Shown: positions 13,199-60,602 of the stretch, piece by piece
Position numbering within the stretch: position 1 is the stretch's first letter
How the letters are laid out: each line of letters starts with the position of its first letter
NCBI RefSeq assembly: GCF_013167955.1
Contig: NZ_BLWF01000004.1
Span: 1-64,000, forward strand
Source: Thermanaeromonas sp. C210
GTDB lineage: Bacteria > Bacillota > DSM-521 > Neomoorellales > Neomoorellaceae
Direction of reading: 5' to 3'
Length of the DNA stretch: 64,000 nucleotides
Program-made: the position numbers and the translations under genes
The notes under the pieces: generated by a model
Databases searched by the model: none
What the model saw: the letters and a program-made list of their open reading frames with translations, nothing else
Told to the model about the DNA's origin: nothing

Positions 13199-13597
13199 CT
13201 CTGACTTGATGTTCGGGCCTTCCCCTGGTGTTCATGACCCCCTGGGTACTATGCCCTCTGCTGACTCCTGCCGGTTCAGCCGTGCCTTCCGACACGGGTT
13301 GCCAGCTTTCCCTGGCTTATCCGGCAGGCCTCCCCGGGTAAGAGCGTTAACCTTCGCCCCGCGCCCGCCCCATCTACTCTACCGCCCCTTGGCAGCCTGG
13401 GATTTCGCTGTGTGTTGCCAGCTCATCCGAACGGTCTAGCCTCCTATGGGGTTCTTGTTCATCGGGCCGTGGCTTTGCCTCCGGCTTCCTTCGAATCCTA
13501 CCTCGCGGTAGGCACCCTTGCCTTTGGCTAGCAGACTGTGCTGCCTCGCCTGCAGCGGACTTTCACCACCAAGTTAACGCCCATGCCGGGCGCACAA

Positions 13598-31007: not shown

Positions 31008-31144
31008 TTCGCTCCTCCTTTTCGGGTGGCTTTAGCTCTAGTGTTATACGCCTTACCTGCCTTTATACCAAATCGAGTAGGAGGGGGCGGCTAGCCCCCG
31101 TCCTCTCACACCACCGGACATGCGGGTCCGCATCCGGCGGTTCA

Positions 31145-32284: not shown

Positions 32285-32565
32285 ACGCGTATTTGGTCCC
32301 GCAACCCTTCGGCCGGGATGCCGTCCACGCCGGGCGCGCCTCCGTTCCGCTCTACCCGCTTTAACGCGGCCAGCATGTTGCTCCTTTCCACCACCTGCTC
32401 CATCAGGCCGCTACCTTGGCCTCCGCGAGGTGACGTTCCGCTTTGTGCCGGAGAAGAACTCGGCCCTCCCGCGGTCCCCCGTGGCTTCACCACTTCCTCC
32501 CGCGGACAGGCCCCTTGCGGGGTTTTCTGCTGTCTTCGTCCTTCTCGCGAACGCATCGGTTTCAC
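32281..32565 (-). CDS. Group II intron RT, N-terminal part in a different frame (copy 2)
   Basis: Same 94 residues as in copy 1, ending GGAPGVDGIPAEGLRDQIRV then TGA overlapping the next TTG. It supplies the RT-0/RT-1 region missing from the main frame. Confidence 0.7.
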   Translation of the reverse strand: MKPMRSREGRRQQKTPQGACPREEVVKPRGTAGGPSSSPAQSGTSPRGGQGSGLMEQVVERSNMLAALKRVERNGGAPGVDGIPAEGLRDQIRV

Positions 32566-32963
32566 CTCTGACTTGATGTTCGGGCCTTCCCCTGGTGTTC
32601 ATGACCCCCTGGGTACTATGCCCTCTGCTGACTCCTGCCGGTTCAGCCGTGCCTTCCGACACGGGTTGCCAGCTTTCCCTGGCTTATCCGGCAGGCCTCC
32701 CCGGGTAAGAGCGTTAACCTTCGCCCCGCGCCCGCCCCATCTACTCTACCGCCCCTTGGCAGCCTGGGATTTCGCTGTGTGTTGCCAGCTCATCCGAACG
32801 GTCTAGCCTCCTATGGGGTTCTTGTTCATCGGGCCGTGGCTTTGCCTCCGGCTTCCTTCGAATCCTACCTCGCGGTAGGCACCCTTGCCTTTGGCTAGCA
32901 GACTGTGCTGCCTCGCCTGCAGCGGACTTTCACCACCAAGTTAACGCCCATGCCGGGCGCACA

Positions 32964-44851: not shown

Positions 44852-45478
44852 TCACTTATCCTTTAAGTGACTGATATCATTTAGCAGGCTCAGGACGTTA
44901 CAGTTCCCGTAGCAGTCCACAATGCTGACACTGGCATTGTCCAGGTGGAACCGCCATATGCCTGCCAGACCCAGGCCCAGGAGGCTGGAAATTACCGTAC
45001 TCAGAGTGCCGCCGTGGGAAACTACGGCCACCGCCTGCCCGGGATGTTGGGCTATGATTTCCCGGACGGCCCGACAAGCCCTCTCCTGGAGTTCGGCGAA
45101 GCTCTCACCACCCGGAACCTGTTTAGTACCGGGATCGGCCAGCCATTCCTCAACGTCTCTGGGAAAGGCCTTCCGGATCTCCTCATAGGTTAGGCCTTCC
45201 CACAGGCCGAAGTCCATTTCCCGCAGATCCCTCACCTGGAGGATCTCTAAACCGTGCATCCGGGCTACCGCCGCTGCCGTTTCCCGGGCACGCCTGAGGT
45301 CGCTGGTATAAACAGCATCCACCTTCTCCCCCTGCAGGCGGCGGCCCACAAGTTCGGCCTGCCGCCGGCCTTCGGGGCTCAAGGCTACATCCATATGTCC
45401 CTGGTACCTTCCGCTGTGGTTCCATTCCGTCTGGGCATGGCGGACCAGGTACAGACGGGTACCTCGGCTCACGGGCAT
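44852..45478 (-). CDS. cobC: Histidine phosphatase, probable alpha-ribazole phosphatase
   Basis: 208 residues of the phosphoglycerate-mutase-like superfamily: LYLVRHAQTEWNHSGRYQGH with the phosphorylated His, DLRRARETA, REMDFGLWEGLTYEE and VAVVSHGGTL with the second His. Its place at the end of the cobalamin operon (overlapping cobD by 10 bases) supports removal of the 5'-phosphate from alpha-ribazole phosphate or adenosylcobalamin phosphate. Confidence 0.88.
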   Translation of the reverse strand: MPVSRGTRLYLVRHAQTEWNHSGRYQGHMDVALSPEGRRQAELVGRRLQGEKVDAVYTSDLRRARETAAAVARMHGLEILQVRDLREMDFGLWEGLTYEEIRKAFPRDVEEWLADPGTKQVPGGESFAELQERACRAVREIIAQHPGQAVAVVSHGGTLSTVISSLLGLGLAGIWRFHLDNASVSIVDCYGNCNVLSLLNDISHLKDK

Positions 45479-46599
45479 CCCCCTGACAGTAATTCTCTTA
45501 ACACGGCCAAAAGGATGTTATTGGCCTGCCGGTCCCTGACGGCGACCCGGATATGAACATCCCCCAACCCGGCAAAGGAAGCGCAATCTCGCACAAGTAC
45601 CTTGCGACGGGCGCAGGCCTCTGCCAGGCGGCCGGAACTCCAACCGGTCCGTCCGATGTCCACGAGAATAAAATTAGCCTCCGGCGGGTAAGGCCTGCTG
45701 CCGGACAGGGAAGCCAGGCCCCGGTAAAGATACTCTTTTTCTTCCTCCAGCCATTTCCTGGTGTTCACGACAAACTCCCTATCCTTGAGGGCCTCTACTC
45801 CGGCCATCTGGGCCAGGATGTTGACGGACCAGGGATCCCGTCTCCCTTCGAGATGCCTTATCAGGGAGGGTGAAGCTACGGCATACCCTAGGCGAAGCCC
45901 AGGAAGGGCATAAAACTTGGTCAAGGACCGGAGCACCACCACGTTCGGATATCGAAGGGCTTCCCGGCACAGGGACCGCCGCCGATCTTCCTGCACAAAA
46001 TCCAAAAAGGATTCGTCCACCACCAGCCAGGTCCCCTGTCTGCGGCTTTCCTCGAGTACGGCTGCCAGATCCCGGTCCTCGATTAGGTTGCCTACGGGAT
46101 TGTTGGGGTTGCAGAGAAAGGCCATATCGACGCGGGCCAGACACCGGCTATATTCCGCTCCGTCCAGGCGGAAGCCCTCACCGGCCGGTAAAGGCAGGGA
46201 AAGCACCCGGGCACCGGCCGCCTCCGCCGCCCGCCTGTATTCCGCAAAGGTGGGTTCGGCCACCAGCACGGCCCGCGGCTTCAACAAAAAGCACAGGCTG
46301 TATATAATATCCGTGGCCCCATTGCCGATAAGTAGGGCCCCGGGCGGCACCTGAAGTTCAAGGGACAGGGCTTCTTTAAGCTCTTTGCTGGCCGGATCCG
46401 GGTACCGGCAAACCGCCCGGAGGTTGGCCGTCAGACATGCCCATACGCCGGCAGGCGGCCCCAGGGGATTGATGTTGGCGCTGAAATCCAGGATTTCTTC
46501 CGGCTTCCAGCCGTATTTATCTAGCGCTCCCCGCCAGTCACCGCCGTGAAGCGGCCCGGACGGTACCCCGTCCTCAACACCCCGTTGCCTTTCGACCAT
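45469..46599 (-). CDS. cobD: Threonine-phosphate decarboxylase
   Basis: PLP enzyme of aminotransferase fold that makes (R)-1-aminopropan-2-ol phosphate for the nucleotide loop. 376 residues: ILDFSANINPLGPP, AVCRYPDPASKELKEAL, LIGNGATDIIYSL, AFLCNPNNPVGNL, and cofactor Lys in LRSLTKFYALPGLRLGYA. It overlaps pduX by about 80 bases unless a later start is used. Together with PduX it completes the route from threonine. Confidence 0.92.
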   Translation of the reverse strand: MVERQRGVEDGVPSGPLHGGDWRGALDKYGWKPEEILDFSANINPLGPPAGVWACLTANLRAVCRYPDPASKELKEALSLELQVPPGALLIGNGATDIIYSLCFLLKPRAVLVAEPTFAEYRRAAEAAGARVLSLPLPAGEGFRLDGAEYSRCLARVDMAFLCNPNNPVGNLIEDRDLAAVLEESRRQGTWLVVDESFLDFVQEDRRRSLCREALRYPNVVVLRSLTKFYALPGLRLGYAVASPSLIRHLEGRRDPWSVNILAQMAGVEALKDREFVVNTRKWLEEEKEYLYRGLASLSGSRPYPPEANFILVDIGRTGWSSGRLAEACARRKVLVRDCASFAGLGDVHIRVAVRDRQANNILLAVLRELLSGGCP

Positions 46600-47471
46600 C
46601 GTTCACGCCAGGCCTCCATTCTACCACCGGTCACCCTCGCCCGGATAAAATTTACATAGGGAAAGGTCGCCCGGATCTTTCCTTCCAGTTCCGCGCAATC
46701 TACCGACCCGGGTCGGTAGAGGATGCCTGCCACGGTGCCGCTGTGGGCCACATTAACCCCCAGGGCCCCAAAGGCGGTAGCTATCTCCACCAGGGTTTCC
46801 AGCTCCGGTTTGTAAAGAATCCCCTGGTTGGCCAGGGCGCTGATTGTCGCGCCCCGGGCGACCAATTCTTCCCGGCCGCTTGTCAAACCTTCCCGCACCA
46901 GGGCCACCGCCCGGCGGACGGCTTCCTCCTTGGCCCGGTTTAAAGCCATTAGATCCGTGCGCCGGTTAAAAAGGAGGGTGTCGACCGTGCCTCCCCGATC
47001 GACTATCAATACCGCCAGGGGCGGCGGTTCTCCGAGGCTCTCCCAGAATTCGCCCCGGAGGTGATCAAAGAGTACGATGCCCGGCAGGAAGGTACCGTCG
47101 CTCGGTTCAACGGACAGGGCTATATCCTTAATCTCTTCAAGGGAAAGCTCCGCCCCCAAGGCTTTAGCCGTAGCGGCTGACGCCGCCGCCACGTCGGCGG
47201 TGCTGCTGGCCAGGCCCTTGCCCGGCGGCAGGGGGTTGAAAATCTTCAGGGCGGCCCCCCAGCGCCTTTCTCCCAGCCGTTCCATGGTCAGGCGGGCCGC
47301 CGCCAGAGCCTTTTGCTTTCCCGCAGGAGCCTCAAAGCGGCGACCGGGAATTAAAGTAACCACCACTTCAGTGCAAATATCTATGGGACAGGTAATAAGG
47401 AAATATCTACCGTCGACCATCCCCTGGACTAATTCGCCGCAGGCACCGCTAACCCGAGCTACACCTCGCAC
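46521..47471 (-). CDS. pduX: L-threonine kinase (GHMP family)
   Basis: Phosphorylates L-threonine for the aminopropanol linker. 316 residues. ARVSGACGELVQGMVDGRYF at the start, GHMP motif NPLPPGKGLASSTADVAAAS, and GVNVAHSGTVAGILY near the end. GTG at 47471 is chosen because AAAGGGGGTGG precedes it; an extended start 20 codons earlier lacks one. In the operon its product feeds CobD. Confidence 0.88.
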   Translation of the reverse strand: MRGVARVSGACGELVQGMVDGRYFLITCPIDICTEVVVTLIPGRRFEAPAGKQKALAAARLTMERLGERRWGAALKIFNPLPPGKGLASSTADVAAASAATAKALGAELSLEEIKDIALSVEPSDGTFLPGIVLFDHLRGEFWESLGEPPPLAVLIVDRGGTVDTLLFNRRTDLMALNRAKEEAVRRAVALVREGLTSGREELVARGATISALANQGILYKPELETLVEIATAFGALGVNVAHSGTVAGILYRPGSVDCAELEGKIRATFPYVNFIRARVTGGRMEAWRERWSKGNGVLRTGYRPGRFTAVTGGER

Positions 47472-47490
47472 GGCTAGCCACCCCCTTTTA

Positions 47491-48252
47491 CTACGGCCGT
47501 AGATAATAAACTGCCAGGAAAAAAACCTCAACGATTTCGGCCAGGGCGCCGTAGGTATCCCCCGTCAGACCGCCTAAAAGCCGCCGGACCCACCTGCACC
47601 ACCCCAGGGACACCAGGGCCGCAAGGAGCAGATAAAAAAGACCAGCAGGCCCCATTATAAACCACGCCACCAGGGCGGCTACCAGGGTGGCGGAAAACAG
47701 GTTGCGGCGCCCGCGGCCGGCCTGGAATAGGGAACCCATCCCTTCCTTACGGGCGTAAGGGAAGCACGTTAGGGCCGGCACCATGGCCCACCGGCTCAAA
47801 ACGGGCATCAACACCAGCGGCGGCGGCAGCGGGAGGCCGGCCAGCCGGAGGTTCCCGGACGGCAGGGCGGCCAAAAGGCTGAATTTCAAAACCAGCAGGG
47901 TGACCACCGCCGTAACGCCATGGGCACCCACGCGGCTGTCCTTCATGATAGCCAGGATACGTTCCCGGTCTCTGCCAGAAAAAAGGCCGTCCATGCTGTC
48001 GATAAAGCCGTCCAGGTGAAGGCCCCCGCTTAAGAAAACCGCCAGGGCCAGGACCAGCCCCGCCCGGGGAAGGTCCGGTACCAGTAAGCTCAATGCCTGC
48101 CAGGCCGCGGCCAAAATGAGACCTAAAACCAGGCCTACCAGGGGAAAGTAGGCGACGCTTTGCTGCCAGGCTTCTCCGGTATTATCACCGCTCTTTAAGG
48201 GAATCCGGGTCAAAAACTTCAGGGCCACAAGAAAGGCATTAAACCCCTTCAA
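47491..48252 (-). CDS. cobS: Cobalamin synthase (adenosylcobinamide-GDP ribazoletransferase)
   Basis: Integral membrane enzyme joining alpha-ribazole to adenosylcobinamide-GDP. 253 residues with about seven hydrophobic segments and the family motif GGLHLDGFIDSMDGLFSG followed by MKDSRVGAHG. Start overlaps the cobT stop by four bases. Last lower-ligand assembly step. Confidence 0.94.
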   Translation of the reverse strand: MKGFNAFLVALKFLTRIPLKSGDNTGEAWQQSVAYFPLVGLVLGLILAAAWQALSLLVPDLPRAGLVLALAVFLSGGLHLDGFIDSMDGLFSGRDRERILAIMKDSRVGAHGVTAVVTLLVLKFSLLAALPSGNLRLAGLPLPPPLVLMPVLSRWAMVPALTCFPYARKEGMGSLFQAGRGRRNLFSATLVAALVAWFIMGPAGLFYLLLAALVSLGWCRWVRRLLGGLTGDTYGALAEIVEVFFLAVYYLRP

Positions 48253-49310
48253 CTATCCAGCGCCCCCGAAACCCCGGCCTGGCTGAAGGTAGCCATTTCA
48301 TGATAGATTTTAATGGCCGCTTCTACCAAGGTCATCCCCAGAGCGGCCCCGGTGCCCTCGCCCAGGCGCATCGCCATGGTCAGCATGGGTTTAAGGCCCA
48401 GGAGTTCCAGGACGGCGGCGTGACCAGGTTCTTCCGAAAGATGGGAGGCCAGAATATAGTCAGCGGCTCCCGGGGCCAGGCGAGCGGCCACCAAGGCAGC
48501 AGCTCCGGAAATAAGGCCGTCGATAATTACCGGCACCCGTTTAGCGGCTCCCGCCAGGATCACCCCAGCCATGCCGGCTATTTCCAGTCCCCCCACCTTG
48601 GCCAGAACATCCAGGGGATCGGCAGGATTGGGGCGATTTACTTCCAAGCCCCGACGAATAGCATTGATTTTTAGCTGCAGGCGCTTATCATCGATACCCG
48701 TCCCCCTACCGGTAATCTTTTCCACCGGCAAACCGCTGAAAGCGGCGACGATGGCTGTGCTGGGGGTGGTGTTGCCGATGCCCATTTCCCCGATGCCTAA
48801 GAGTTCGCTCCCGGCGGCAATTTGCTCGTTAGCAACCTCGATACCGATTTCCAAGGCGGCAACGGCCTGTTCCCTGGTCATGGCCGGCCCCCTCGCAAGG
48901 TTGGCCGTACCCGGGGCTACCTTTCTTTTCAACAAGCCCGGGAGGTCCGGCAGTTCCGCCGCTACCCCGACATCTACCAGGACGAGCTCCGCCCCGGCAT
49001 GACGGGCCAGAACGTTGATTGCCGCCCCGCCCCGGGCAAAATTTAATACCATCTGGGGCGTAACCTCCTGGGGAAAAGCGCTCACCCCTTCCGCCACCAC
49101 CCCGTGGTCACCAGCCATAAGGATATGGGTTTTGCGGGTTAAGCGGCGCGGCACTTCCCCCTTTATCCCGGCCAGTTGCCGGGCAATAGCTTCCAGGGCG
49201 CCCAGGCTTCCTGGCGGCTTGGTGAGATCATCGAGGTGGGCCTGGGCTCGAACCATGGCCTCCCTGTCCAGGGGGCTGATGGCAGCCAGGGTCCGGTTTA
49301 ACAAATCCAT
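48249..49310 (-). CDS. cobT: Nicotinate-nucleotide--dimethylbenzimidazole phosphoribosyltransferase
   Basis: Activates the lower-ligand base to alpha-ribazole phosphate. 353 residues: LTKPPGSLGALEAIARQLAG, MAGDHGVVAEGVSAFP, GEMGIGNTTPSTAIVAAF, GTGIDDKRLQLK and catalytic Glu region LGEGTGAALGM. It is preceded by the cbiA relic that supplies its GGAGGAA. Confidence 0.95.
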   Translation of the reverse strand: MDLLNRTLAAISPLDREAMVRAQAHLDDLTKPPGSLGALEAIARQLAGIKGEVPRRLTRKTHILMAGDHGVVAEGVSAFPQEVTPQMVLNFARGGAAINVLARHAGAELVLVDVGVAAELPDLPGLLKRKVAPGTANLARGPAMTREQAVAALEIGIEVANEQIAAGSELLGIGEMGIGNTTPSTAIVAAFSGLPVEKITGRGTGIDDKRLQLKINAIRRGLEVNRPNPADPLDVLAKVGGLEIAGMAGVILAGAAKRVPVIIDGLISGAAALVAARLAPGAADYILASHLSEEPGHAAVLELLGLKPMLTMAMRLGEGTGAALGMTLVEAAIKIYHEMATFSQAGVSGALDS

Positions 49311-49603
49311 GGGGCATTCCTCCTTCGCGGCAGGCCTTCATGAAGCGCCTGCACGCCGTCATAAAATTATTTGCGGCTTCTTTATTGAAGCCAATATCCT
49401 TGTGCGGTATAACCGTCGCGGTACAACTTTTGGCCGACCTGCCAGGTATAGGCGTAAGGGAAATCATCGTCCGTACCGGTCAGCGAGGAATAGTGGAACT
49501 CGTGGCCCCGGACGGTATCGCCCCTTTTGCCCAATATGGTAGCGATGCTCGTCTTGCCTACCGCGCTGCGGCTACCGGCTATGACAATTCGCTTATAGCC
49601 CAT
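49311..49603 (-). pseudogene. cbiA: Cobyrinate a,c-diamide synthase relic (large internal deletion)
   Basis: The start is intact: binding site AAGGGG, ATG, then YKRIVIAGSRSAVGKTSIATI, the N-terminal P-loop of CbiA/CobB. The sequence then jumps to LGKRGDTVRGHEFHYSSL, the glutaminase-domain C-terminus, runs to a stop at 49382, and continues in another frame as FNKEAANNFMTACRRFMKAC. About 350 of some 450 residues are missing and the end is frameshifted, so it cannot work. Its position between cbiB and cobT shows an ancestral complete operon. Confidence 0.85.
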
Positions 49604-49619
49604 ATAAATACCCCTTTTT

Positions 49620-50591
49620 TCAGTACCAGCGCCCGGCAAAGGCCAAAATCGAACCGCCGACAAGCGAAACGAGGAAAGTGGCAACCGCCATGAGGCAGAC
49701 GGCCAGGCCGATATGCTCTTTCTTTAAAGGCTGCCGGGCCTCCCCGATGAGAGGGCGTTGAGAGGGCCGCCCCTGATAATAATTGAGACCGCCCAGCTGC
49801 ACTCCCAGGGCGCCGGCGACCGCCGCCTCCGGAAAACCGCTGTTGGGGCTGGGGTGCCGGCGGGCATCGCGCAGCATAATCGTCCAGGCCCGCCGGCCAT
49901 AACCCAGCAGGGCGGCCGCCACGCATAAGGCTATCCCCGTTAGCCTGGCGGGAAGATAATTAGCCACATCGTCCAGCCTGGCTGCCGCCCGGCCGAAAAA
50001 AAGGTAGCGGTCGTTTTTGTAACCCAGCATGGAATCCAGGGTGTTGACGGCCCGGTAGGCCATGGCCAGGGGAACCCCTCCTAGGAAAAAATAGAAAAGG
50101 GGGGCAATAACACCATCGCTGGTATTCTCAGCCACAGTTTCCACCGTCGCCCGGACTACCTCCCCTTCGTCCAGGCCCGCCGTATCCCGGCCCACTATCC
50201 GGCTTACCCGGCGGCGAGCGCAGATCAAGTCTCCTGTTTCAAGGGCCCGGGCGACGCCGGCGGCCGCTGTAGCCAGGCCCCGGGGGGCAATGGTTGTAGC
50301 CAGCAGCCACGCGGCCAGCAATACCTCCACCCAGTAATTAATCCGGCCGGCTGCTGCCAGCAAGCCCCAGGTGATGGCCCAGCTGCCCCCGACGATGCCG
50401 ACGACCACCACCCCGCCCGTAGCTAACAGGTAGCCCCGGGAAGCATTCGGCCGCCACAAAAGTTTTTCCAGGGCGCTGATACCCGCCCCCATGACCTGGG
50501 TCGGGTGCAGGAGCCAGGGCGGGTCCCCCACCGCCAGGTCCAGGAGCAGGGCCAGGACCAGCAAAAGGACGCTAGGCTCCAAAGCCGTCAC
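49620..50591 (-). CDS. cbiB: Adenosylcobinamide-phosphate synthase
   Basis: Membrane enzyme attaching aminopropanol phosphate to adenosylcobyric acid. 323 residues with several hydrophobic helices. Family segments LLDLAVGDPPWLLHPTQVMG, VSRIVGRDTAGLDEGEVVRA, VAENTSDGVIAPLFYF and DARRHPSPNSGFPEAAVAGAL are present. Overlaps cobQ by 20 bases. Confidence 0.94.
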   Translation of the reverse strand: MTALEPSVLLLVLALLLDLAVGDPPWLLHPTQVMGAGISALEKLLWRPNASRGYLLATGGVVVVGIVGGSWAITWGLLAAAGRINYWVEVLLAAWLLATTIAPRGLATAAAGVARALETGDLICARRRVSRIVGRDTAGLDEGEVVRATVETVAENTSDGVIAPLFYFFLGGVPLAMAYRAVNTLDSMLGYKNDRYLFFGRAAARLDDVANYLPARLTGIALCVAAALLGYGRRAWTIMLRDARRHPSPNSGFPEAAVAGALGVQLGGLNYYQGRPSQRPLIGEARQPLKKEHIGLAVCLMAVATFLVSLVGGSILAFAGRWY

Positions 50592-52125
50592 CTGCCAGGG
50601 GCCGGTCCAGACCCATGATCGCCGCCAGTCGTTTCAGATCTAAGTGCCTGGCCACCACGGCAGCCAGGGCATCAAAACGGCGCTCCTGGTCGGCGTCGAA
50701 TTCCAGACCGCTCTCCCTGGCCGGCAGGCCGCGCCTGGCCCTTAAAACATCTAGGATCCGATGGCGGAAGGCGTCATTATCCCAGATGCCGTGGATGTAG
50801 GTACCCCACACCAGACCGTCGTCGCTCTGGGCGCCGTCGTCGATGTCCACCAAAACGCTGCCGCGCCGAGTGATTTTAAAGGCTGGCTGGCCGGCCACCA
50901 GGCTGCTTGCCCCCATATGGATCTCATAGCCCTTCACTTCCAGGCCCTGCAACGGCCCCAAGAAGGGTCCCGTGCCGGTTACCCGGCCTTCAACAAGGTT
51001 AGTGGCCTTGGTCGGCTGAAACACCGTCCGCACCGGCAGGAGGCCCATGCCGTCAATGCCGTCATAGTCGGTTTCTACATGGCCGGGATCGGCAATTTCC
51101 CGGCCCAGCATTTGATAACCGCCGCAGATACCCACCACCGGGGTGCCCCGCGCCGCCAGCTCTTTAATGGCATCTTCCAGGCCCCGCTGCCGCAGCCACA
51201 ACAGATCACCAATGGTGTTCTTGCTCCCCGGCAGGATGATGAGGTCCGGATTCCCGAGGGCGTTCTTGTCCTCTACATAGCGCAGGTTAACGCCCTCTTC
51301 CCTTGCCAGGGCGTCAAAATCGGTAAAGTTGGCGATGCACGGCAGCTTTATTACGACAATTTCCACCTCGCCGGGGGCAGTGGGGCGGGCAGCGGCCTTT
51401 TCGAGGACCACGGAATCCTCCTCGGGCAGACCGTGGGCCAGGAAGGGGATGACCCCCAGAACAGGCTTGCCGGTTTTCTTTTCTAAAAAGTCCAGGGCCG
51501 GCTGCAGCAAAGCCATGTCGCCCCGGAACTTGTTGATGATCAAACCGGCCACCAGTTCCCTCTCGTCTTCCTCTAAAAGCTCCAAAGTCCCGACAATGGC
51601 CGCCAGGGCACCGCCGCGGTCGATATCGGCCACCAGGAGCACCGGCGCTCCGGCCATCTTGGCCACCCGCATATTGGCGATTTCCCTATCCTTAAGGTTA
51701 ACCTCCGCCGGGCTGCCGGCGCCTTCGATAACGATAACCTCGAATTCCTTATCCAGGGCGGCATAAGCCGCCTCCACGTAACGCCACAGCTCCTGGTTAA
51801 AGCTTCCATGATAATCCCTGGCTCCCACATTGCCCACCGGCCGCCCCAGGAGAATCACCTGGGAGCGGGCGTGGGCCGTGGGTTTGAGCAAGATCGGATT
51901 CATTTCCACCCGCGGCTGCACCCCGGCGGCATAAGCCTGCACCAACTGGGCGCGTCCCATTTCCCCGCCGTCCGCAGTGGCGCCGGAGTTTAAAGCCATG
52001 TTCTGGGATTTAAAAGGGGCTACCCGGTAGCCGGCGCGGTAAAAAATCCGGCACAGGGCCGCCGCCAAGACGCTCTTGCCGACGTTGGAGCTGGTCCCCT
52101 GGAGCATGACCGCCCGGGCCATCAA
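50572..52125 (-). CDS. cobQ: Cobyric acid synthase
   Basis: Amidates four side chains using glutamine and ATP. 517 residues: P-loop-like QGTSSNVGKSVLAAALC, NMALNSGATADGGEMGRAQ, DRGGALAAIVGT, and a class I glutamine amidotransferase domain with VVGICGGYQMLGREI (nucleophile Cys) and a late His in GTYIHGIWD. Start overlaps cbiC by four bases. Also called cbiP in the anaerobic series. Confidence 0.96.
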   Translation of the reverse strand: MMARAVMLQGTSSNVGKSVLAAALCRIFYRAGYRVAPFKSQNMALNSGATADGGEMGRAQLVQAYAAGVQPRVEMNPILLKPTAHARSQVILLGRPVGNVGARDYHGSFNQELWRYVEAAYAALDKEFEVIVIEGAGSPAEVNLKDREIANMRVAKMAGAPVLLVADIDRGGALAAIVGTLELLEEDERELVAGLIINKFRGDMALLQPALDFLEKKTGKPVLGVIPFLAHGLPEEDSVVLEKAAARPTAPGEVEIVVIKLPCIANFTDFDALAREEGVNLRYVEDKNALGNPDLIILPGSKNTIGDLLWLRQRGLEDAIKELAARGTPVVGICGGYQMLGREIADPGHVETDYDGIDGMGLLPVRTVFQPTKATNLVEGRVTGTGPFLGPLQGLEVKGYEIHMGASSLVAGQPAFKITRRGSVLVDIDDGAQSDDGLVWGTYIHGIWDNDAFRHRILDVLRARRGLPARESGLEFDADQERRFDALAAVVARHLDLKRLAAIMGLDRPLAGDGFGA

Positions 52126-52760
52126 TCTTCACCTTCCCCGTCCCAAGTCAGGTGCAGCAGGGCATTGACGGCAGCCACCGCCACCGTGCTGCCGCCCCTG
52201 GTGCCCCTGACGGTGACAAAGGGTACGCCGGACCTCTCTAAGGCTGCCTTGGCTTCCGCCGCGCCCACAAAGCCCACCGGAGTGCCGATGACGGCCGCCG
52301 GTGCCACCTGGCCTGCGGCCATCAATTCTAGAAGGCGAAACAGGGCCGTGGGAGCATTGCCGATGGCCACGACGGCTCCCGTCATCCGGGGCGCCAGGTA
52401 CTCCATGGCGGCCATAGCCCTGGTTATTCCCCTGGCCGCCGCTGCCGCAGCCACCTCCCTTTCCCGGATGGCGCAGATTACCCTCCCGCCGCCCCGGGCA
52501 AGGATTTGGCTGTTGATCCCCTGGCGCACCATTTCGATGTCGGTAATGATGTCCGCCCCGCCGCACAGGGCCGCAGTCGCCGCTGCAACCAGCCGGGGGT
52601 GAATAACCACCAGCCGGGCGTATTCCAGGTCGCCGGTGGCATGAACGATTCGGGTAACGATGTTCCTTTCCTCCGCCCCCAAACCGAGATCGCCTAGCTG
52701 CGCCGCGATGATGGCCCGGCTTTGGGCCTCAATGGCCCGGGGATTATTGAGGTACGACAC
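52122..52760 (-). CDS. cbiC: Cobalt-precorrin-8 methylmutase
   Basis: Moves the methyl from C-11 to C-12 to give cobyrinate. 212 residues: VTRIVHATGDLEYA with the catalytic His, CGGADIITDIEMVRQGI, AIGNAPTALFRLLEL and GTPVGFVGAAEAK. Overlaps cbiX by 17 bases. Confidence 0.95.
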   Translation of the reverse strand: MSYLNNPRAIEAQSRAIIAAQLGDLGLGAEERNIVTRIVHATGDLEYARLVVIHPRLVAAATAALCGGADIITDIEMVRQGINSQILARGGGRVICAIREREVAAAAAARGITRAMAAMEYLAPRMTGAVVAIGNAPTALFRLLELMAAGQVAPAAVIGTPVGFVGAAEAKAALERSGVPFVTVRGTRGGSTVAVAAVNALLHLTWDGEGED

Positions 52761-53127
52761 CCGGAGCCACCTCCCGGATACGTTCGACTATAATCTCGGC
52801 GATCCGCCTATCGGCGCCCAGGTTGCTGCCGTAAATCAAGGTAACCCCTGGAAACCGCTCCCGGGCCGTAGCCAACTGCTCGGGAATATCCCGCTGGACG
52901 TGGAGGCCGTTGCAGAAAAACATGGGTATCACGACTATCTGCCGCAGGCCTTCCTCCACCAGCATGGCAATACCTTCCAAGAGATTGGGATGGGTGCGCA
53001 TCATGTAGCAGGGCTGTATCCGGACATCGCCCAGAAATTCCCGCACGTGGCCCGCCAAAAGCTTCAAATGCTCGTTGGCCTCGGGGATGCGGCTGCCGTG
53101 GCCCAGTAAAATAATACCTATATCCAT
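52744..53127 (-). CDS. cbiX: Sirohydrochlorin cobaltochelatase, short form
   Basis: Inserts cobalt into sirohydrochlorin, the first dedicated step. 127 residues, the small CbiX form that works as a homodimer. Metal-binding His residues lie in LLGHGSRIPEANEHL and in PMFFCNGLHVQRDIP. CbiK is not present, so this is the chelatase of the operon. Confidence 0.9.
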   Translation of the reverse strand: MDIGIILLGHGSRIPEANEHLKLLAGHVREFLGDVRIQPCYMMRTHPNLLEGIAMLVEEGLRQIVVIPMFFCNGLHVQRDIPEQLATARERFPGVTLIYGSNLGADRRIAEIIVERIREVAPGVVPQ

Positions 53128-53137
53128 TTCGGTCCTC

Positions 53138-53896
53138 CTATCTCCCTAGGGCTTCCCCCAGCATGGGGATGATTTCCTCCAGTGGCAGGCCGCCGGACTC
53201 GGACGGGCGGCGGACGACCACGACCGTCAGGCCCAAATCCAGGGCGGCCCGGACTTTTTCTTCGACTCCGCCGGTGCTCCCGCTCTCTTTGGTAACCACC
53301 ACATCGGCTTGGTACTGCCGATACAGGGCGCGGTTTAACTCATAGCTTAAGGGGCCTTGAATGGCCACAATATCCCGCGGCCAGATTCCCAGCCGCCGGC
53401 ACCTGGCCAGGGAATCCTCCTCGGGCAGCACCCGGACGACGAGCCTTTTCCCTTTCAGGGCCGGTGCATCGGTAAAACACTCCAAATGGCGCGTCCCGAT
53501 GGTTAGAAATATTACCTGGCCGCGGGCGGCCAGCACGGCCGCTTCCTCAAAACTGGAGGCCGGCAGAAGGTTGGGGTAGGAAGGTAGGCGCACCTCCGGC
53601 CGGCGGTAACGGAAATAGGGGAGCCCCAAGGCGCGGCAAGCCTCCCGAGCGTTCTCGGTAATGTTAACGGCAAAGGGATGGGTGGCGTCAATTACGGCAA
53701 CAATGCCGTGTCTTTTAAGATAATTTGCCAGTTCTTCTTGCCCCAGGGGACCTGTGCGGACTAAATCAGCCCCCGCTTGCCTGGCTAATCTGGCTCCGTA
53801 CTCAGTAACGACGCTGGCGGCCACCCGGTAACCCTCTGATTTTAAAACGCCGATAACTTGGGAGGCGTCGGCGGTGCCGGCCAGCACCAGGATCAC
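53138..53896 (-). CDS. cbiJ: Cobalt-precorrin-6A reductase
   Basis: NADH-dependent ring reductase. 252 residues: LVLAGTADASQVIGVLKSEG at the N-terminus, VIDATHPFAVNITENAREAC, YFRYRRPEVR and VVTKESGSTGGVEEKVRAA. Overlaps cbiH by four bases. Confidence 0.92.
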   Translation of the reverse strand: MILVLAGTADASQVIGVLKSEGYRVAASVVTEYGARLARQAGADLVRTGPLGQEELANYLKRHGIVAVIDATHPFAVNITENAREACRALGLPYFRYRRPEVRLPSYPNLLPASSFEEAAVLAARGQVIFLTIGTRHLECFTDAPALKGKRLVVRVLPEEDSLARCRRLGIWPRDIVAIQGPLSYELNRALYRQYQADVVVTKESGSTGGVEEKVRAALDLGLTVVVVRRPSESGGLPLEEIIPMLGEALGR

Positions 53897-54672
53897 AACC
53901 GATACCCCCTGGGTGTCACCAGACGGCCGTCCAGCACCCTGGTCTGGCTGTTGCCGATGATTACCGTGCTTACCATATCCACCGGCAAATCTAGAAAGGT
54001 AGCCAGGTCACGGATCCACGCTTCTTCCCCTTCCCGGCCGGCATTGCGCACCACTCCCACCGGCGTGGCCGGGTGGCGGAACCGGAGGATAATATCCCGG
54101 GCCCGGCGAAGGTGGTCGGGTCGCCCGTGGCTGCGGGGGTTGTACAGCACCAGGACGAAATCGGCCGCCGCCGCATGCTCGAGGCGGGCGGCGATAACCT
54201 CCCAGTGGGTCAGGCGATCGCTTAAGCTGATGACGGCAAAGTCGTGCATCAGGGGGGCCCCCAGGGCGGCCGCCGCAGCAGTGGCCGCTGTCACGCCGGG
54301 AACGACGTCGACCTTTATCCCTTGGCCCCGGGGATGGGTGGCCAAGATTTCCAGGAGCAGCCCGGCCATACCGTAGACACCGGGATCGCCGCTGGAAACA
54401 ACAGCCACCCGGGCTCCGGCGGCAGCCCTCTCCACCGCCTCCCGGCACCGCTCCACCTCCCCCGTCATCCCGGTAACTACTACCTCCTTGCCCTCGGTCA
54501 TGGAGGTTATCAAGTCGACATAAGTGCGGTAACCGACGATTACTTCCGCCTGCTCCAGGGCCTGCCTGGCGCGGTAGGTCATCTCCGCCTCCCCGCCCGG
54601 TCCCAGGCCCACAACCGCTATCTCGCCAGGGCCAGGGCGACGGTAACTCCCCGGTAGCTCTTTTTCGGCCAT
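53893..54672 (-). CDS. cbiH: Cobalt-precorrin-3B C17-methyltransferase
   Basis: SAM-dependent ring-contracting methyltransferase. 259 residues. VVGLGPGGEAEMTYRARQAL binding loop, SSGDPGVYGMAGLLLEIL, VVPGVTAATAAAAALGAPL and VLYNPRSHGRPDHL are typical of CbiH/CobJ. ATG at 54672 is chosen after GGAGAGGGGG, which lies within the end of cbiG, giving a 55-base overlap. Confidence 0.94.
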   Translation of the reverse strand: MAEKELPGSYRRPGPGEIAVVGLGPGGEAEMTYRARQALEQAEVIVGYRTYVDLITSMTEGKEVVVTGMTGEVERCREAVERAAAGARVAVVSSGDPGVYGMAGLLLEILATHPRGQGIKVDVVPGVTAATAAAAALGAPLMHDFAVISLSDRLTHWEVIAARLEHAAAADFVLVLYNPRSHGRPDHLRRARDIILRFRHPATPVGVVRNAGREGEEAWIRDLATFLDLPVDMVSTVIIGNSQTRVLDGRLVTPRGYRL

Positions 54673-55709
54673 AATAATTCCCCCTCTCCAGCCGCCAGGA
54701 CTGCCGCCGGCTCGCAAACCCCGGGAATGCCGGTAAACCTTTTAACCCTTTCCGAGCGGTTAAGATAGGGCCGTCTATCCAGGCAGCCTACCAGCTCCTC
54801 AGGCGTAAAGGTTAAAAGCTTAACGCCGAGGCGCGCGGCAGCTTCTTTAAGCCCGGGCTCCCTTCCCTTAAAATCGACGGTGGCGAGGGAGGCAAGGCTG
54901 CGGCGGCTGAGGCCTGCCTCCGCCAGGGCCAGGCCCAGGGCGTAAAGAATCATACGGGCGGTTGCCCCCCGGCGGCAGCCGATGCCGGCGCTGATCACCC
55001 GGGGCCTCCAGTAGACCCACCGCGGCCCCGGAAGGGGCAGGCGCCGCCAGGTTACCAGAATCCCGGCTTCGGCCACGCCCTGGGGAAGGGGGTTTTTTAA
55101 GGGGCGCACCCTTAACCCGGGAAGCAAGCCCTCCACGGCCCTAAGTAAAGGACTTTCCACCAGCACCTCCACCGGTTCGCCATTGACCAGGGCCGCCATC
55201 ACTTTGGTGAAAACGGCCGCCGGCCAGACATCCACGTTCAGATCCCGGGCCACCAAATCCAGGGCCGGAAGCCCCAGGACCTCGCCGGCGGTAGTAATCA
55301 CCGCCCGACCGTTTAGGATGTCCGCCACCTGGCGGGCCAGAGCGTTGGCCCCGCCCAGGTGGCCGGAAAGGAGGCTTACGGCGTATTGTCCCGCCACGTC
55401 CACCACTACCACTGCCGGATCCGCCTTTTTAGAAACAAGGTGGGGACTCAGGGCCCGCACGGCAATTCCCACGGCCATAACCATGATTAACGAACGGTAG
55501 TGGGGAAAAATCTGACCCAGGAACCGGGATAACGGTCCGGAATAGCTTGTTATATTGAATGAATTTCCGTCCTCCCCTTCTGCCGCCGGGCTCAAACCGA
55601 CAGGGACGAAGACGGTACTCTTCTCCGCTAAAGCCCGGGCCAGCCTTCGGGCCGTCTCGTATCCGGGCCGGGTCAAAGTGATGATGGCTACCCTGCCGCC
55701 TTCATCCAC
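54618..55709 (-). CDS. cbiG: Cobalt-precorrin-5A hydrolase
   Basis: Opens the delta-lactone and releases acetaldehyde, a step specific to the oxygen-independent route. 363 residues. N-terminal VAIITLTRPGYETARRLARA; middle HLGGANALARQVAD; C-terminal domain ISAGIGCRRGATARMILYAL. GTG at 55709 follows GGTGGAG; the long upstream extension has no binding site. Overlaps cbiF by eight bases. Confidence 0.93.
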   Translation of the reverse strand: MDEGGRVAIITLTRPGYETARRLARALAEKSTVFVPVGLSPAAEGEDGNSFNITSYSGPLSRFLGQIFPHYRSLIMVMAVGIAVRALSPHLVSKKADPAVVVVDVAGQYAVSLLSGHLGGANALARQVADILNGRAVITTAGEVLGLPALDLVARDLNVDVWPAAVFTKVMAALVNGEPVEVLVESPLLRAVEGLLPGLRVRPLKNPLPQGVAEAGILVTWRRLPLPGPRWVYWRPRVISAGIGCRRGATARMILYALGLALAEAGLSRRSLASLATVDFKGREPGLKEAAARLGVKLLTFTPEELVGCLDRRPYLNRSERVKRFTGIPGVCEPAAVLAAGEGELLWPKKSYRGVTVALALAR

Positions 55710-56466
55710 CGGATTTCTCCACCTTCCGGTAGCCGTGGCCGAAGGACGGGTGGTAGAGGCAGGAGCGCTGGTAAGGGCCGGCCAGGAAATCGCCGACCAG
55801 GAGGAGTGCCGTCCGCTCAATACCTTCCTGCCGGGCCTTAGCTGCAATATCCTCGAGGCTGCCCCAAATTACCTTTTCTTCCGGCCAGGAAGCTTTATAA
55901 ACCACGGCCGCCGGCGTCTGCTCCCCGTACCCGCAGGCCAGTTCGGCCGTAGCCTCCTCCAGGCAGTGGGCGCTCAGGAAGAGGCAGAGGCTCGCGCGGT
56001 GGGCACTCAGGGCCCTCAGATTTTCGGCCTGAGGCACGGGAGTCCGGCCCCCGCGGCGGGTGAGGATAAGGGTCTGGCTCCGTCCTGGCACGGTAAATTC
56101 CCGGCCCAGGGCGGCGGCCGCCGCCGAGAAGGAACTCACTCCCGGCACCACCTCATAGGGGATGCCGCGGGCCTCCAGGGCCTCCATTTGTTCCCGTATA
56201 GCACCGTACAGGGAAGGATCGCCCGTATGTAGCCTTACCACCTCCCGTCCCCGCCGGACGGCCCCTTCCATAATCTCAACAATCTCCTCCAGGGTAAGAG
56301 AGGAGCTGTCGTAACATACCGCTTCCGGGTGCGCCCAGGCCAGCAAAGCCGGATTAACCAGGGATCCGGCATAGATAATGACCCCCGCCTGCTCCAATAG
56401 CCGTCTACCCTTAACGGTGATTAGTTCCGGGTCGCCCGGACCGGCCCCTACAAAGTAAACCTTCAT
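55702..56466 (-). CDS. cbiF: Cobalt-precorrin-4 C11-methyltransferase
   Basis: SAM-dependent. 254 residues: VYFVGAGPGDPELITVKGRR, AGVIIYAGSLVNPALL, VVRLHTGDPSLYGAIREQME, VVPGVSSFSAAAAALGREFT and QTLILTRRGGRTPVP. All are standard CbiF/CobM segments. Overlaps cbiL by four bases. Confidence 0.95.
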   Translation of the reverse strand: MKVYFVGAGPGDPELITVKGRRLLEQAGVIIYAGSLVNPALLAWAHPEAVCYDSSSLTLEEIVEIMEGAVRRGREVVRLHTGDPSLYGAIREQMEALEARGIPYEVVPGVSSFSAAAAALGREFTVPGRSQTLILTRRGGRTPVPQAENLRALSAHRASLCLFLSAHCLEEATAELACGYGEQTPAAVVYKASWPEEKVIWGSLEDIAAKARQEGIERTALLLVGDFLAGPYQRSCLYHPSFGHGYRKVEKSGG

Positions 56467-57179
56467 TGCCGCTTTCCCCGCCCCTTTACGATAATCAAGG
56501 AAAGATAATCATGCCTTTGTCCCATGCCGGCTTCCAGATCCCAGGAAAAGGTTTCCCCCTTCTGGCCGCACCGGGTGGCGAGGACAGAGGTCCTCACCAC
56601 GCCGGCCCGGGTCAGGACGCGAACGATCTCGTCGTAACGCCTCGCCACCTTCATGAGCACCAGATTGGGAAATAAGGGTATCAGCCCTTCCAAGGCCTCG
56701 GGGTCCTCCAGGGCGGGTATAATGGCCAGCGCCTCATCGCCCTTGGCCAGGGGCAGATTCAGCCTGGCGGCTGCCGCCGAGAAAGAAGTGATTCCCGGTA
56801 CGGTTTCTATGGGGATGGAAGGGTCCAACCCTTGGATAATTTCCATAAGGTAACTGTAAGTGCTGTAAAGGCTTGCGTCTCCCAGGGTCAAAAAAGCCAC
56901 ATCCCTACCCTCCCGGAGCTTCCCCAGCAGCTCCCGCGCCGCCGCCTCCCAGCAGCGCTCGAGGTAAGAGCGGTCGCGGCTCATGGGCATAAACAGGGAG
57001 AGTATCTCCTGGTTTGGCCGCACAAAGGCCTGCACCACCCCCAGGGCGAGGCTTTCCTCTCCCCGCTGGGAAACGGGTACTGCCAGGACGGGCACCCTTT
57101 CCAAAATCCGTCGGGCTTTCAGGGTGAGGAGCTCTGGATCACCGGGACCCACTCCCACGCCGTATAATTTGCCGCTCAT
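56463..57179 (-). CDS. cbiL: Cobalt-precorrin-2 C20-methyltransferase
   Basis: SAM-dependent first methylation of the branch. 238 residues: LYGVGVGPGDPELLTLKARR, VAFLTLGDASLYSTYSYLME, VPGITSFSAAAARLNLPLA. ATG 57179 follows GGAGGAGGAAGG; the open frame extends 52 codons farther but is Arg/Gly/Pro-rich non-coding sequence. 220 bases separate it from cbiT; that gap holds no gene. Confidence 0.95.
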   Translation of the reverse strand: MSGKLYGVGVGPGDPELLTLKARRILERVPVLAVPVSQRGEESLALGVVQAFVRPNQEILSLFMPMSRDRSYLERCWEAAARELLGKLREGRDVAFLTLGDASLYSTYSYLMEIIQGLDPSIPIETVPGITSFSAAAARLNLPLAKGDEALAIIPALEDPEALEGLIPLFPNLVLMKVARRYDEIVRVLTRAGVVRTSVLATRCGQKGETFSWDLEAGMGQRHDYLSLIIVKGRGKRQ

Positions 57180-57399
57180 GGCCTTCCTCCTCCCACCGGC
57201 CTCCGGGCCTTTAGGGCCGGCTGTATCTCCTCTTCCCAACCCTGGTGGACCGGGATCCCCTGGTAGAACCTCCCGGCCCGGACGGCCCTTCGCCTCCGAC
57301 CCCTTTCTCCGGCCCCACCGGGGATCCGCTATCACCCGCTAACACCCCACACGGCCCGGGACTTGACGCCTGGACCTGACGGACTAAAGCAGGACCTGA

Positions 57400-58008
57400 C
57401 TAGGAACAGGCGCCGTCGGCCAGCTGAACAATATAAACCGGATTTAGGCTGCGGAACATCCGGCGCCCGCCCACCTCTTCCAACCTCGCTACATTTAATG
57501 CTACGGCCGAGGTGTGGTACCCCTTGCTCCGGCCGAAGGTCATACTATCCCACAGGGTTTCCAAGGTAACAGCATTAATGACCATGATCCCCCGGGGCTT
57601 CAGGGCCCTGCTACAGTACTCCAGAATATCCTTCAGCCGGCCCCCGCTGCCCCCGATAAAAATGCGGTCAGCCGGCGGCAGGCCCTCCAGGGCTTCAGGA
57701 GCCCTCCCCACTACCTGAACTACATTCCCCAAGCCGAAGGCCTGGATGTTAGCGCGGGTCAAATCCGCCGCCACCGGGTCCTCCTCGACGGCGTATAACG
57801 TTCCGGGATTAACCAATCGGGCGGCCTCTACCGTCAGGGACCCTGTACCGGAGCCGACGTCATATACCACCTGTCCCGGGGCCAGGCGCCCCTTGGCCAG
57901 GGTCAGTACCCGGATTTCCTCTTTAGTAAGGGGAACTGCCCCCCGGCTGAACATCCCGTCGGGAATGCCGGGAGTTATGTAGGGCCACTTACCGCCGGGA
58001 AAACCCAC
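57400..58008 (-). CDS. cbiT: Cobalt-precorrin-6B C15-methyltransferase (decarboxylating)
   Basis: 202 residues. VYDVGSGTGSLTVEAARLV is the SAM-binding motif I of a Rossmann methyltransferase; GGSGGRLKDILEYCSRAL and GIMVINAVTLETL follow. It acts with CbiE at C-15/C-5. The start overlaps the end of cbiE by 20 bases. The C-terminal ten residues are not family-typical. Confidence 0.93.
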   Translation of the reverse strand: MGFPGGKWPYITPGIPDGMFSRGAVPLTKEEIRVLTLAKGRLAPGQVVYDVGSGTGSLTVEAARLVNPGTLYAVEEDPVAADLTRANIQAFGLGNVVQVVGRAPEALEGLPPADRIFIGGSGGRLKDILEYCSRALKPRGIMVINAVTLETLWDSMTFGRSKGYHTSAVALNVARLEEVGGRRMFRSLNPVYIVQLADGACS

Positions 58009-58642
58009 CGATGATCACCGCCGCCGCATCAAAATCGGCCCGGGCCAGCTCCTCGGCCGTCAGATACGCCGTCCTCTCTCCCGGCCCGCCCAGTTGACTT
58101 CCCACCCAGAGGACGGTTGCACCCAGCCCTTTACCCTCCATGTATCTTCCCACCGCCGCCGGCGTATTTTCCCCGCCGGTGAGGACGGCAAGTAGGATTT
58201 CCTGCCGGGCCAACCCCTCCAAATAGGGGTCCAGTACTCCCAGGGGCCGTCCGTGCAGGCTCACTATATTGGCCCTTTCCCAGCTGCATCCCAGCCGGGC
58301 GAAGGCCAGCTGCACCGAGCTTATTCCCGGCAGCACCCGCATTTCCTCCGGGCGAAAACGGCGCTGCAGCCAGCCCAAGAGGCTATAAAGGCCGGGATCT
58401 CCCGAGACCAGAACTGCTGTCGGGCGCCCCGCTACCGAACTCAAATACCGGTATAACCCTTCCAGATCGGCATCAATAATCCTGCGTTCCTTATCGAGGA
58501 AACCGAACAGTTCCAGGGCCCGGCGCCCTCCCACCAAAATCTCCGCCTCCGCTGCCGCCTGGTAAGCCGCCGGCGTAAGCCACATAGGATCGCCCGGTCC
58601 CACGCCGACCACCGTAAGCCAAGGCCGCCTTTCACCCTGCAT
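57989..58642 (-). CDS. cbiE: Cobalt-precorrin-7 C5-methyltransferase
   Basis: 217 residues: VVGVGPGDPMWLTPAAYQAA, VLVSGDPGLYSLLGWLQRRF, LPGISSVQLAFARLGCSW, VSLHGRPLG. Tetrapyrrole methylase fold, separate from cbiT as in clostridia (fused CobL elsewhere). Confidence 0.93.
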   Translation of the reverse strand: MQGERRPWLTVVGVGPGDPMWLTPAAYQAAAEAEILVGGRRALELFGFLDKERRIIDADLEGLYRYLSSVAGRPTAVLVSGDPGLYSLLGWLQRRFRPEEMRVLPGISSVQLAFARLGCSWERANIVSLHGRPLGVLDPYLEGLARQEILLAVLTGGENTPAAVGRYMEGKGLGATVLWVGSQLGGPGERTAYLTAEELARADFDAAAVIIGGFSRR

Positions 58643-59738
58643 GCTGCAAGTCCTCCATTATCCTAGCCCCTTCCTCGTCCTGGCCGACGATGCCACCGGC
58701 CAGGTCCAAGAAGGCGGTCCCCACCTCCAGGACATCCCCTACCAGCTCCCGGCTGCGCTTGCTGGCCACGGAAGCCAGATGGTCCCAGAATTCGCGGGAC
58801 CGCCTTTCCTCCCAGAAACCGCGCAGAATTTGAACAACAACCTCCAGGGTATTGGCCGACAGTATAGCCTGCACCCCCTCGGGTGGGAGGCCCCAGGCTG
58901 CCGCCCTCGCAGCCACAATCTCCCGCCGGGCATCTGCCGTCCGGCTATGGGTATTAAAGATACCGCCGGCCACCTTCACTAACTTGCCCACGCCACCCCA
59001 CAGGAGCACCTTCTTCAAGCCCCGCTCTGCACACGCCTTAAGCAGGTCTCCTATGTAGTTACCGCTCAAGATTACCGCCCTTTCCGGCAGGCCGTAACCC
59101 TCCACCGCCTGGCGCCGGCCCCGGCGGCCGGGCGTTAACACGATGGCTCTAAATCCCGCCGCCCGGGCTACATCAATTTGCGGGAGGAGGGAAACGCGCA
59201 GCGCCTCTTCCGACATGGGCTCTACAATGCCGGTAGTCCCCAGGATGGACAGGCCTCCTACAATTCCCAGGTGGGGGTTTAAAGTGCGCCGGGCCAGTTC
59301 CTCACCGCCGGGGATACTTATGGTGAGCTCCACACCCTCACCTTCGGGGATAAAATCCCTGACTGCTGCGAAAATCATGGCGCGGGGCACGGGATTGATG
59401 GCCGGCTCTCCCACCGGTACCGCCAGGCCCGGAAGAGTTACCTTTCCCACCCCTCTACCGGCCTTCAAAGTAATCCCCCGCCCTCCGGGACGCGCCCTCA
59501 CCTGAACGGCGGCACCGTGGGTAATGTCGGGATCATCGCCTGCGTCTTTGATGACCGTAGCTTCTGCCCAGCCCTCCCCCCGCCGCACCGTTACCGGGAG
59601 TTCGATTACCTCTCCCCGGGGCAGGGTGACCCGCACTCGGTCCTCTGTTTTTCCGGGGCCCCAGAGGGCTTTTACCGCCGCCCTGGCTGCGGCCGCCGCG
59701 CAGGTACCGGTGGTATAGCCCTTTCTAAGATTGTTCAT
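58632..59738 (-). CDS. cbiD: Cobalt-precorrin-5B C1-methyltransferase
   Basis: Marker of the anaerobic route. 368 residues: LRKGYTTGTCAAAAARAAVK, VIKDAGDDPDITHGA, GRGVGKVTLPGLAVPVGEPA, PGRRGRRQAVEGYGLPERAV and GGVGKLVKVAGGIFNTHSR. Overlaps cbiE and cobU by short stretches, so the first genes are tightly coupled. Confidence 0.96.
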   Translation of the reverse strand: MNNLRKGYTTGTCAAAAARAAVKALWGPGKTEDRVRVTLPRGEVIELPVTVRRGEGWAEATVIKDAGDDPDITHGAAVQVRARPGGRGITLKAGRGVGKVTLPGLAVPVGEPAINPVPRAMIFAAVRDFIPEGEGVELTISIPGGEELARRTLNPHLGIVGGLSILGTTGIVEPMSEEALRVSLLPQIDVARAAGFRAIVLTPGRRGRRQAVEGYGLPERAVILSGNYIGDLLKACAERGLKKVLLWGGVGKLVKVAGGIFNTHSRTADARREIVAARAAAWGLPPEGVQAILSANTLEVVVQILRGFWEERRSREFWDHLASVASKRSRELVGDVLEVGTAFLDLAGGIVGQDEEGARIMEDLQHAG

Positions 59739-60309
59739 AGAGACCTCCTCCCGGTCCCTTAAGTTGCCTCCGGACAGCCAGGGATTTTACTTCCACGGGC
59801 AGGCCGCAGACCACTAGATACACCGCGTCGGCCCTGGAGGCCACTTCCTGATTGGCCAGGCCCAGGAGATCGCGATAAAGGCGGCCGAGGGGATAGGGTG
59901 GTACCACCCCTAATCCCACCTCATTGCTGACCAGGATAACGTCGGCCGGGGACTCCTGGGCCCTGCGGGCCACCTTCCGCAACCGGACCACGACCTCCTC
60001 CTCGCCGAGGCCCTCCTCTACCAGGAGGTTGCCCACATAAACCGCCAGGCAGTCCACCAGGAGGACCCTTCCCCTCTTCCCCCATTCTTTGATTACTTCC
60101 TCCAGGGCCACGGGTTCCTCCACCGTAGTCCAGCAGTCCGGCCTCCGGGCCTTATGGCGGGCCACCCGGGCGGCCATCTCCTCATCCGTGACCCTGGCGG
60201 TGGCCACATAAACGACCTCCTCACCCCAGCTCGCGGCCAACTCTTCGGCAAAGCGGCTCTTACCGCTCCGCACCCCTCCCGTAATGAGTACCAGCCTTCC
60301 CCGTTCCAA
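59725..60309 (-). CDS. cobU: Adenosylcobinamide kinase / guanylyltransferase
   Basis: Phosphorylates adenosylcobinamide and adds GMP. 194 residues: P-loop LITGGVRSGKSRFAEELA, VYVATARVTDEEMAARVARH with the guanylylated His, and VSNEVGLGVVPPYPLGRLYRD. First gene after the riboswitch leader, 37 bases past the terminator hairpin. Confidence 0.95.
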   Translation of the reverse strand: MERGRLVLITGGVRSGKSRFAEELAASWGEEVVYVATARVTDEEMAARVARHKARRPDCWTTVEEPVALEEVIKEWGKRGRVLLVDCLAVYVGNLLVEEGLGEEEVVVRLRKVARRAQESPADVILVSNEVGLGVVPPYPLGRLYRDLLGLANQEVASRADAVYLVVCGLPVEVKSLAVRRQLKGPGGGLYEQS

Positions 60310-60378: not shown

Positions 60379-60427
60379 GCTATTATCCTTCCATCGGGCC
60401 CTTCCCTTGACGCGAGGGTCTACAGTC

Positions 60428-60582
60428 ACCACAGGCAGGTCTCCTGGCTCCGGCTCACCGCCATCCTTCCCCTTCCCAGGGCGTACCCCAGTGGGCTTTC
60501 TGAAGGATAGCTCCCCGGTTACAGTGGCGCGACCGCTCAGGATTTTCACCTGATTCCCTTTTAGCCTTACGGCACCTGTGGT
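60428..60582 (-). promoter_or_regulatory. Cobalamin riboswitch
   Basis: The minus-strand sequence has the class landmarks in order: ACCACAGGTGCC, AAAAGGGAATCAGGTGAAA, TCCTGAGCGGTCGCGCCACTG, GAGCC-AGGAGACCTGCC and closing CTGTGGT, which pairs with the first element. Adenosylcobalamin binding is expected to favour the terminator at 60346 and shut off the operon. Confidence 0.95.
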
Positions 60583-60602
60583 CGTCCGCTATTTTTTCCT
60601 TC

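Follow-up and report, generated by a model that had tools for sequence, protein, structure and literature searches.

The cobalamin operon of the heat-loving Thermanaeromonas sp. C210, a relative of Moorella, as found in the 64,000-nucleotide stretch of DNA analyzed here (the window), is intact except for cbiA, of which only a short remnant persists. As far as a draft assembly allows, sequence analysis makes it certain that this remnant is a real, decaying cbiA pseudogene, predicted to be non-functional. It is also well supported by sequence that the only CbiA-type amidase remaining in the assembled genome is DsrN, a siroheme amidase encoded on a different contig. We tentatively favor the explanation that B12 synthesis continues in this organism, with DsrN covering the a,c-amidation.

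The original prediction of a gutted cbiA at 49311-49603 was confirmed by translation, HMMs and alignment to intact relatives. The remnant comprises the following features:

49311..49603, minus strand: cbiA pseudogene (translation, HMMs, alignment to intact Moorella-type copies)
49538..49603, minus strand: first 22 cbiA codons retained, P-loop included (alignment)
49537..49538, minus strand: junction of a 1,083-bp (361-codon) in-frame deletion (alignment)
about 49387..49537, minus strand: retained C-terminal cbiA piece, ILGK..RGHEFHYS..DGYTAQG (BLASTN)
about 49311..49386, minus strand: cbiA C-terminal tail, out of frame, reaching the cobT ribosome-binding site (BLASTN)

Read from 49603 to 49304 on the minus strand, the remnant translates as MGYKRIVIAGSRSAVGKTSIAT followed by ILGKRGDTVRGHEFHYSSLTGTDDDFPYAYTWQVGQKLYRDGYTAQGYWLQ and a stop codon. 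The first part, MGYKRIVIAGSRSAVGKTSIAT, corresponds to the cbiA start with its P-loop; after it comes an in-frame jump to the C-terminal ILGK...RGHEFHYS...DGYTAQG, and then the frame is lost. HMMs place the second part at positions ~367-420 of the ~420-450 in the CbiA, CobB and CfbB models. Comparison by BLASTN with intact cbiA in the cbiB-cobT interval of Moorella-type relatives revealed three collinear pieces. The main gap, previously and rightly put at about 350 residues, is exactly 361 codons or 1,083 bp when measured against G005, G012 and G009; the start, the binding site and part of the end were kept, as had been claimed, in the form of the 22 N-terminal codons with the P-loop and the aligned C-terminal pieces. 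Relative to the intact Moorella copies, the remnant also carries two frame-breaking deletions, of 1 bp (~49397/49398) and 25 bp (~49386/49387), and a 2-bp insertion in the tail (~49325-49326). Because these three small indels shift the C-terminal tail out of frame, the predicted product is a 73-aa fragment.

A CbiA protein is taken here to consist of an N-terminal P-loop synthetase domain and a C-terminal glutamine amidotransferase (GATase) domain with a catalytic Cys, in ~450-470 aa. The remnant is homologous to such proteins and is sited between cbiB and cobT; it has lost the catalytic Cys and the larger part of each domain. Within its first 22 codons there are four amino-acid changes at places that are unchanged in four intact relatives. 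On the remnant's own branch dN is ~0.09 and dN/dS ~0.37 over 67 codons (0.19 with one reference pair), a number of codons so small that the estimated time since loss is wide. Neighboring genes, on the same branch and with the same reference pair, mostly have a dN of 0.02-0.04 and a dN/dS of 0.07-0.20.

The claim that the other corrin-ring genes are intact also held. All ten (cbiD, E, T, L, F, G, H, J, X and C) are full length, as are the later genes cobQ, cbiB, cobT, cobS, the PduX-like kinase gene, cobD, cobC and cobU, and the ~7.8 kb of ring genes contain zero frameshifts and zero stops. NrdJ, likewise said to be retained, was found with its TSCPD domain. The relevant features of the window, in addition to the remnant, are:

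335..2617, plus strand: NrdJ, class II (B12-dependent) ribonucleotide reductase with TSCPD domain
44852..45478, minus strand: cobC (alpha-ribazole phosphatase), intact, outside the Moorella-type block
45469..46599, minus strand: cobD (threonine-phosphate decarboxylase), intact, outside the Moorella-type block
46500..55900: Moorella-type block, approximate limits, from pduX to within cbiF, about 9.4 kb, including the cbiA remnant
46521..47531, minus strand: GHMP kinase, PduX-like, intact
47491..48252, minus strand: cobS, intact
48249..49310, minus strand: cobT, intact
49620..50591, minus strand: cbiB, intact
50572..52125, minus strand: cobQ (cobyric acid synthase), intact, without unusual substitutions
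52122..52760, minus strand: cbiC, intact
52744..53127, minus strand: cbiX (cobaltochelatase-like), intact
53138..53896, minus strand: cbiJ, intact
53893..54717, minus strand: cbiH, intact
54618..55847, minus strand: cbiG, intact
55702..56466, minus strand: cbiF, intact, the Moorella-type block ending inside it
56463..57335, minus strand: cbiL, intact
57400..58008, minus strand: cbiT, intact
57989..58642, minus strand: cbiE, intact
58632..59738, minus strand: cbiD, intact
59725..60309, minus strand: cobU, intact
60417..60594, minus strand: cobalamin riboswitch at the head of the operon, full length, 114 bits

Elsewhere in the window, about 19.4 kb from each other, are two group II introns (11705-13512 and 31072-32879, both on the minus strand). 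Their Rfam scores and spacing are equal, and they are probably near-identical copies.

DNA identity to Moorella-type genomes is mostly 75-95% within the block, whereas it is ~61-73% on both sides within the operon. Synonymous distances are near saturation outside the block and ~0.3-0.9 inside it, and for the dsr cluster and the operon genes outside the block, G017/Thermanaeromonas is the somewhat nearer match. On the simplest reading of these patterns, the middle of the operon was probably replaced by Moorella-type DNA through homologous recombination, and the cbiA remnant either arrived with this block or decayed after its arrival. The nearest sampled Moorella changes gene by gene within the block, which suggests that its donor is unsampled. 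Since the genome is a draft, the remnant might in principle be an assembly or sequencing artefact. We consider this the least probable reading, and an artefactual deletion very unlikely, given that several separate lesions are seen: one assembly error cannot account for four separate indels, amino-acid change is raised in the retained pieces, and the limits of the block fall within intact reading frames (pduX and cbiF).

A whole-genome search for CbiA-family GATase domains yielded CobQ, a MurT/GatD-type protein, weak amidotransferase matches and one full-length CbiA homolog of 467 aa on another contig (C3:100515-101918). A GATase_3 match at C4:147161 was considered as a second CbiA and rejected, as it is of the MurT/GatD type. 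The original prediction had proposed a second cbiA elsewhere, to be sought among CbiA/CobB homologs; the C3 homolog was indeed found, but it is a DsrN, and neither a second true CbiA nor a fragment of another copy was detected in the whole genome (a 19-contig draft, 99.4% complete). It is unlikely that an intact cbiA lies outside the assembly, in a gap or on a plasmid, or that a non-homologous enzyme does the step. Contig breaks can have such an effect: in G016 (Thermanaeromonas-like; L238 and L252), contigs break inside cbiB and cobT and the place of cbiA is absent, illustrating how the gene can be missed. In C210, however, completeness is high, the search turned up no trace of another copy, and the assembly runs unbroken through the usual place of cbiA, where the pseudogene lies.

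CobQ amidates further side chains of the same molecule, as is textbook knowledge, and an unusual CobQ covering the a,c-amidations had been proposed. However, CobQ of C210 shares 89-92% identity with its counterparts in the nearest Moorella-type genomes, which retain an intact CbiA, and it is unchanged at all columns that are invariant in 13 relatives. The proposal was rejected on these grounds, and we give a CobQ of broadened specificity very little credence.

The protein encoded at C3:100515-101918 is, by its sequence relationships, DsrN and not CbiA. DsrN is a siroheme amidase homologous to CbiA, CobB and CfbB, and in M. thermoacetica dsrN adjoins a second dsrAB copy (PMC10504309). In C210 the gene lies downstream of dsrM, dsrK, dsrA-like and dsrB-like genes, a layout also found in Moorella and Thermanaeromonas. 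At this locus (L007:5550-13968), dsrM-dsrK-dsrA-dsrB-dsrN is followed by genes for a multi-HTH regulator and SelD, in an order conserved in Moorella and Thermanaeromonas. In a 75-row tree, the C3 protein falls inside the dsr-linked clade, where it groups with Thermanaeromonas DsrN, and the branch to cob-linked CbiA has 100% SH-aLRT support. It is DsrN-like at 11/11 columns that separate the DsrN and CbiA clades, with no shift towards CbiA-type residues at these clade-specific columns. It lies outside the clade of cob-operon CbiA, though generic CobB models score it above their cut-off, and its 452.8 bits in the CfbB model are below the curated cut-off of 560. All 64/64 near-universal columns are kept, the catalytic Cys included, and it is the sole homolog in the genome with complete active-site motifs. 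A single-sequence search found no solved structure near this protein, and no cobalamin riboswitch was found in the 20 kb around dsrN.

In relatives whose operon could be read through, cbiA lies between cbiB and cobT, and in G017 directly after cbiB. Exceptions to an intact cbiA at the usual place are G016, G008 and G001. In G008 (Moorella-type, single contig), cbiA of the cob operon has an in-frame TGA (L163:9637-9639) that falls exactly on the codon for the GATase catalytic Cys (PLYAE*GGLMYL), the remainder of the 468-codon frame being open; in its sister genomes, G013 and G014, the frame is intact. This TGA is possibly a nonsense mutation, a sequencing error or a selenocysteine codon, the last of these being without support, as no convincing SECIS hairpin was found at the site. 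G008 is perhaps a second member of the Moorellaceae in which cbiA is broken and DsrN intact. In G001, of the same family (L162), the operon contig contains cobQ-cbiB-cobT-cobS and cobU without ring genes or cbiA, and no CbiA/DsrN homolog was found in the genome. Judged by gene content, what is left of this operon seems to serve salvage only, so ring genes can disappear when synthesis is lost.

We further surveyed 300 genomes of the phylum, in which the DsrN clade scored at least 470 bits and CbiA at most 390. A DsrN-clade protein occurs in about 40 of them, most of which also have a separate CbiA homolog; outside the Moorellaceae, about 25 DsrN-bearing genomes keep one. Reading of the cob operon confirmed a separate CbiA in G143, G020, G187, G257 and G290, and the first three of these, considered as further cases of DsrN without CbiA, were rejected because each has a cob-linked CbiA. 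DsrN without CbiA was observed in eight genomes (G054, G303, G202, G225, G023, G062, G244 and G094), none with CbiC, so these organisms make no corrin ring. A general role of DsrN as a CbiA substitute across the phylum is therefore unsupported.

Demand for corrinoids in C210 is indicated by homologs of the corrinoid iron-sulfur protein (CFeSP) subunits and by NrdJ. Contig C4 carries a cluster predicted to serve cobamide salvage (L253:3853-8393; G000 C4:174000-187000), in which btuF-btuC-btuD and a gene of the DUF71 (diphthamide-synthase-like) type directly follow a B12 riboswitch. Genes of the DUF71-B12 group are linked to the salvage of cobamides and adjoin B12 transporter genes in 75/102 cases (PMC3541065). 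A riboswitch-controlled BtuFCD importer makes corrinoid salvage possible, and de novo B12 synthesis may have been lost recently, as the original prediction also allowed: cbiA would have decayed while the ring genes are still undamaged, and corrinoids imported by BtuFCD would be finished by CbiB, CobU, CobS and CobT together with the DUF71-type protein. G001 illustrates the decay of an operon to a salvage-like set within this family. We regard such a loss as possible, ranking close behind coverage of the step by DsrN. Against it, decay is absent from the ring genes: the ~0.3-kb remnant carries the large deletion and three small indels, the ~7.8 kb of ring genes is without a lesion, and the imported ring genes keep a low dN/dS. 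If the indels of the remnant were separate events, ring genes unselected for equally long would be expected, by proportion, to carry dozens of lesions, a strong argument but not proof. We judge it most likely that B12 synthesis still runs, because lesions accumulated in the remnant and not in the ring genes.

In the mechanism that we tentatively prefer, Moorella-type homologous DNA would have replaced the middle of the operon, and the cbiA within this block would have decayed. Conversion of cobyrinate to cobyrinate a,c-diamide would then be carried out by the DsrN encoded beside dsrA-dsrB, acting on a second tetrapyrrole besides siroheme and accepting cobyrinate at its a and c acetates alike. 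According to work cited in PMC10504309, the known product of DsrN is siroheme amide and not a diamide, so to amidate the two acetates of cobyrinate it would need a new or a side activity. Several observations speak against DsrN: most other DsrN-bearing genomes of the phylum keep a separate CbiA, no B12 riboswitch is near dsrN, the protein is not shifted towards CbiA-type residues, and an importer is available. DsrN of this lineage of the Moorellaceae could, more speculatively, be a bifunctional tetrapyrrole amidase serving both siroheme amide and cobalamin, which would have allowed the death of cbiA here and perhaps in G008. Overall, the interpretation in the original prediction was supported in part, and it missed the three small indels, the imported block and the DsrN candidate.

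If DsrN covers the step, one amidase would be common to sulfite reduction and B12 synthesis, the CbiA/CfbB/DsrN enzymes would still be interchangeable, and pathway predictions based on a missing gene can err both ways. If it does not, the genome would have been caught just after the loss of B12 synthesis, with corrinoid-dependent enzymes remaining.

Compared with known systems, the remnant is homologous to CbiA/CobB (cobyrinic/hydrogenobyrinic acid a,c-diamide synthase) and has the position usual in the Moorellaceae, between cbiB and cobT, but it lacks 361 of ~470 codons and its reading frame and is not functional. CfbB, the Ni-sirohydrochlorin a,c-diamide synthase, is a third member of the amidase superfamily of CbiA and DsrN, and its targets are the a and c acetates of a different tetrapyrrole (PMC7242693); unlike the C3 protein, which scores under the CfbB cut-off, it belongs to the archaeal F430 pathway. 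As in paralogous displacement, one pathway gene has been lost and a homolog elsewhere is the candidate; no case of a paralog taking over between the siroheme and cobalamin pathways was found in the literature searched. With DsrN of the dsr clusters, a siroheme amidase known from Allochromatium vinosum (PMC10504309), the C3 protein shares its clade, its dsrA-dsrB neighborhood and its active-site motifs. What sets C210 apart is that its genome retains a full set of corrin-ring genes with DsrN as its one CbiA-type amidase.
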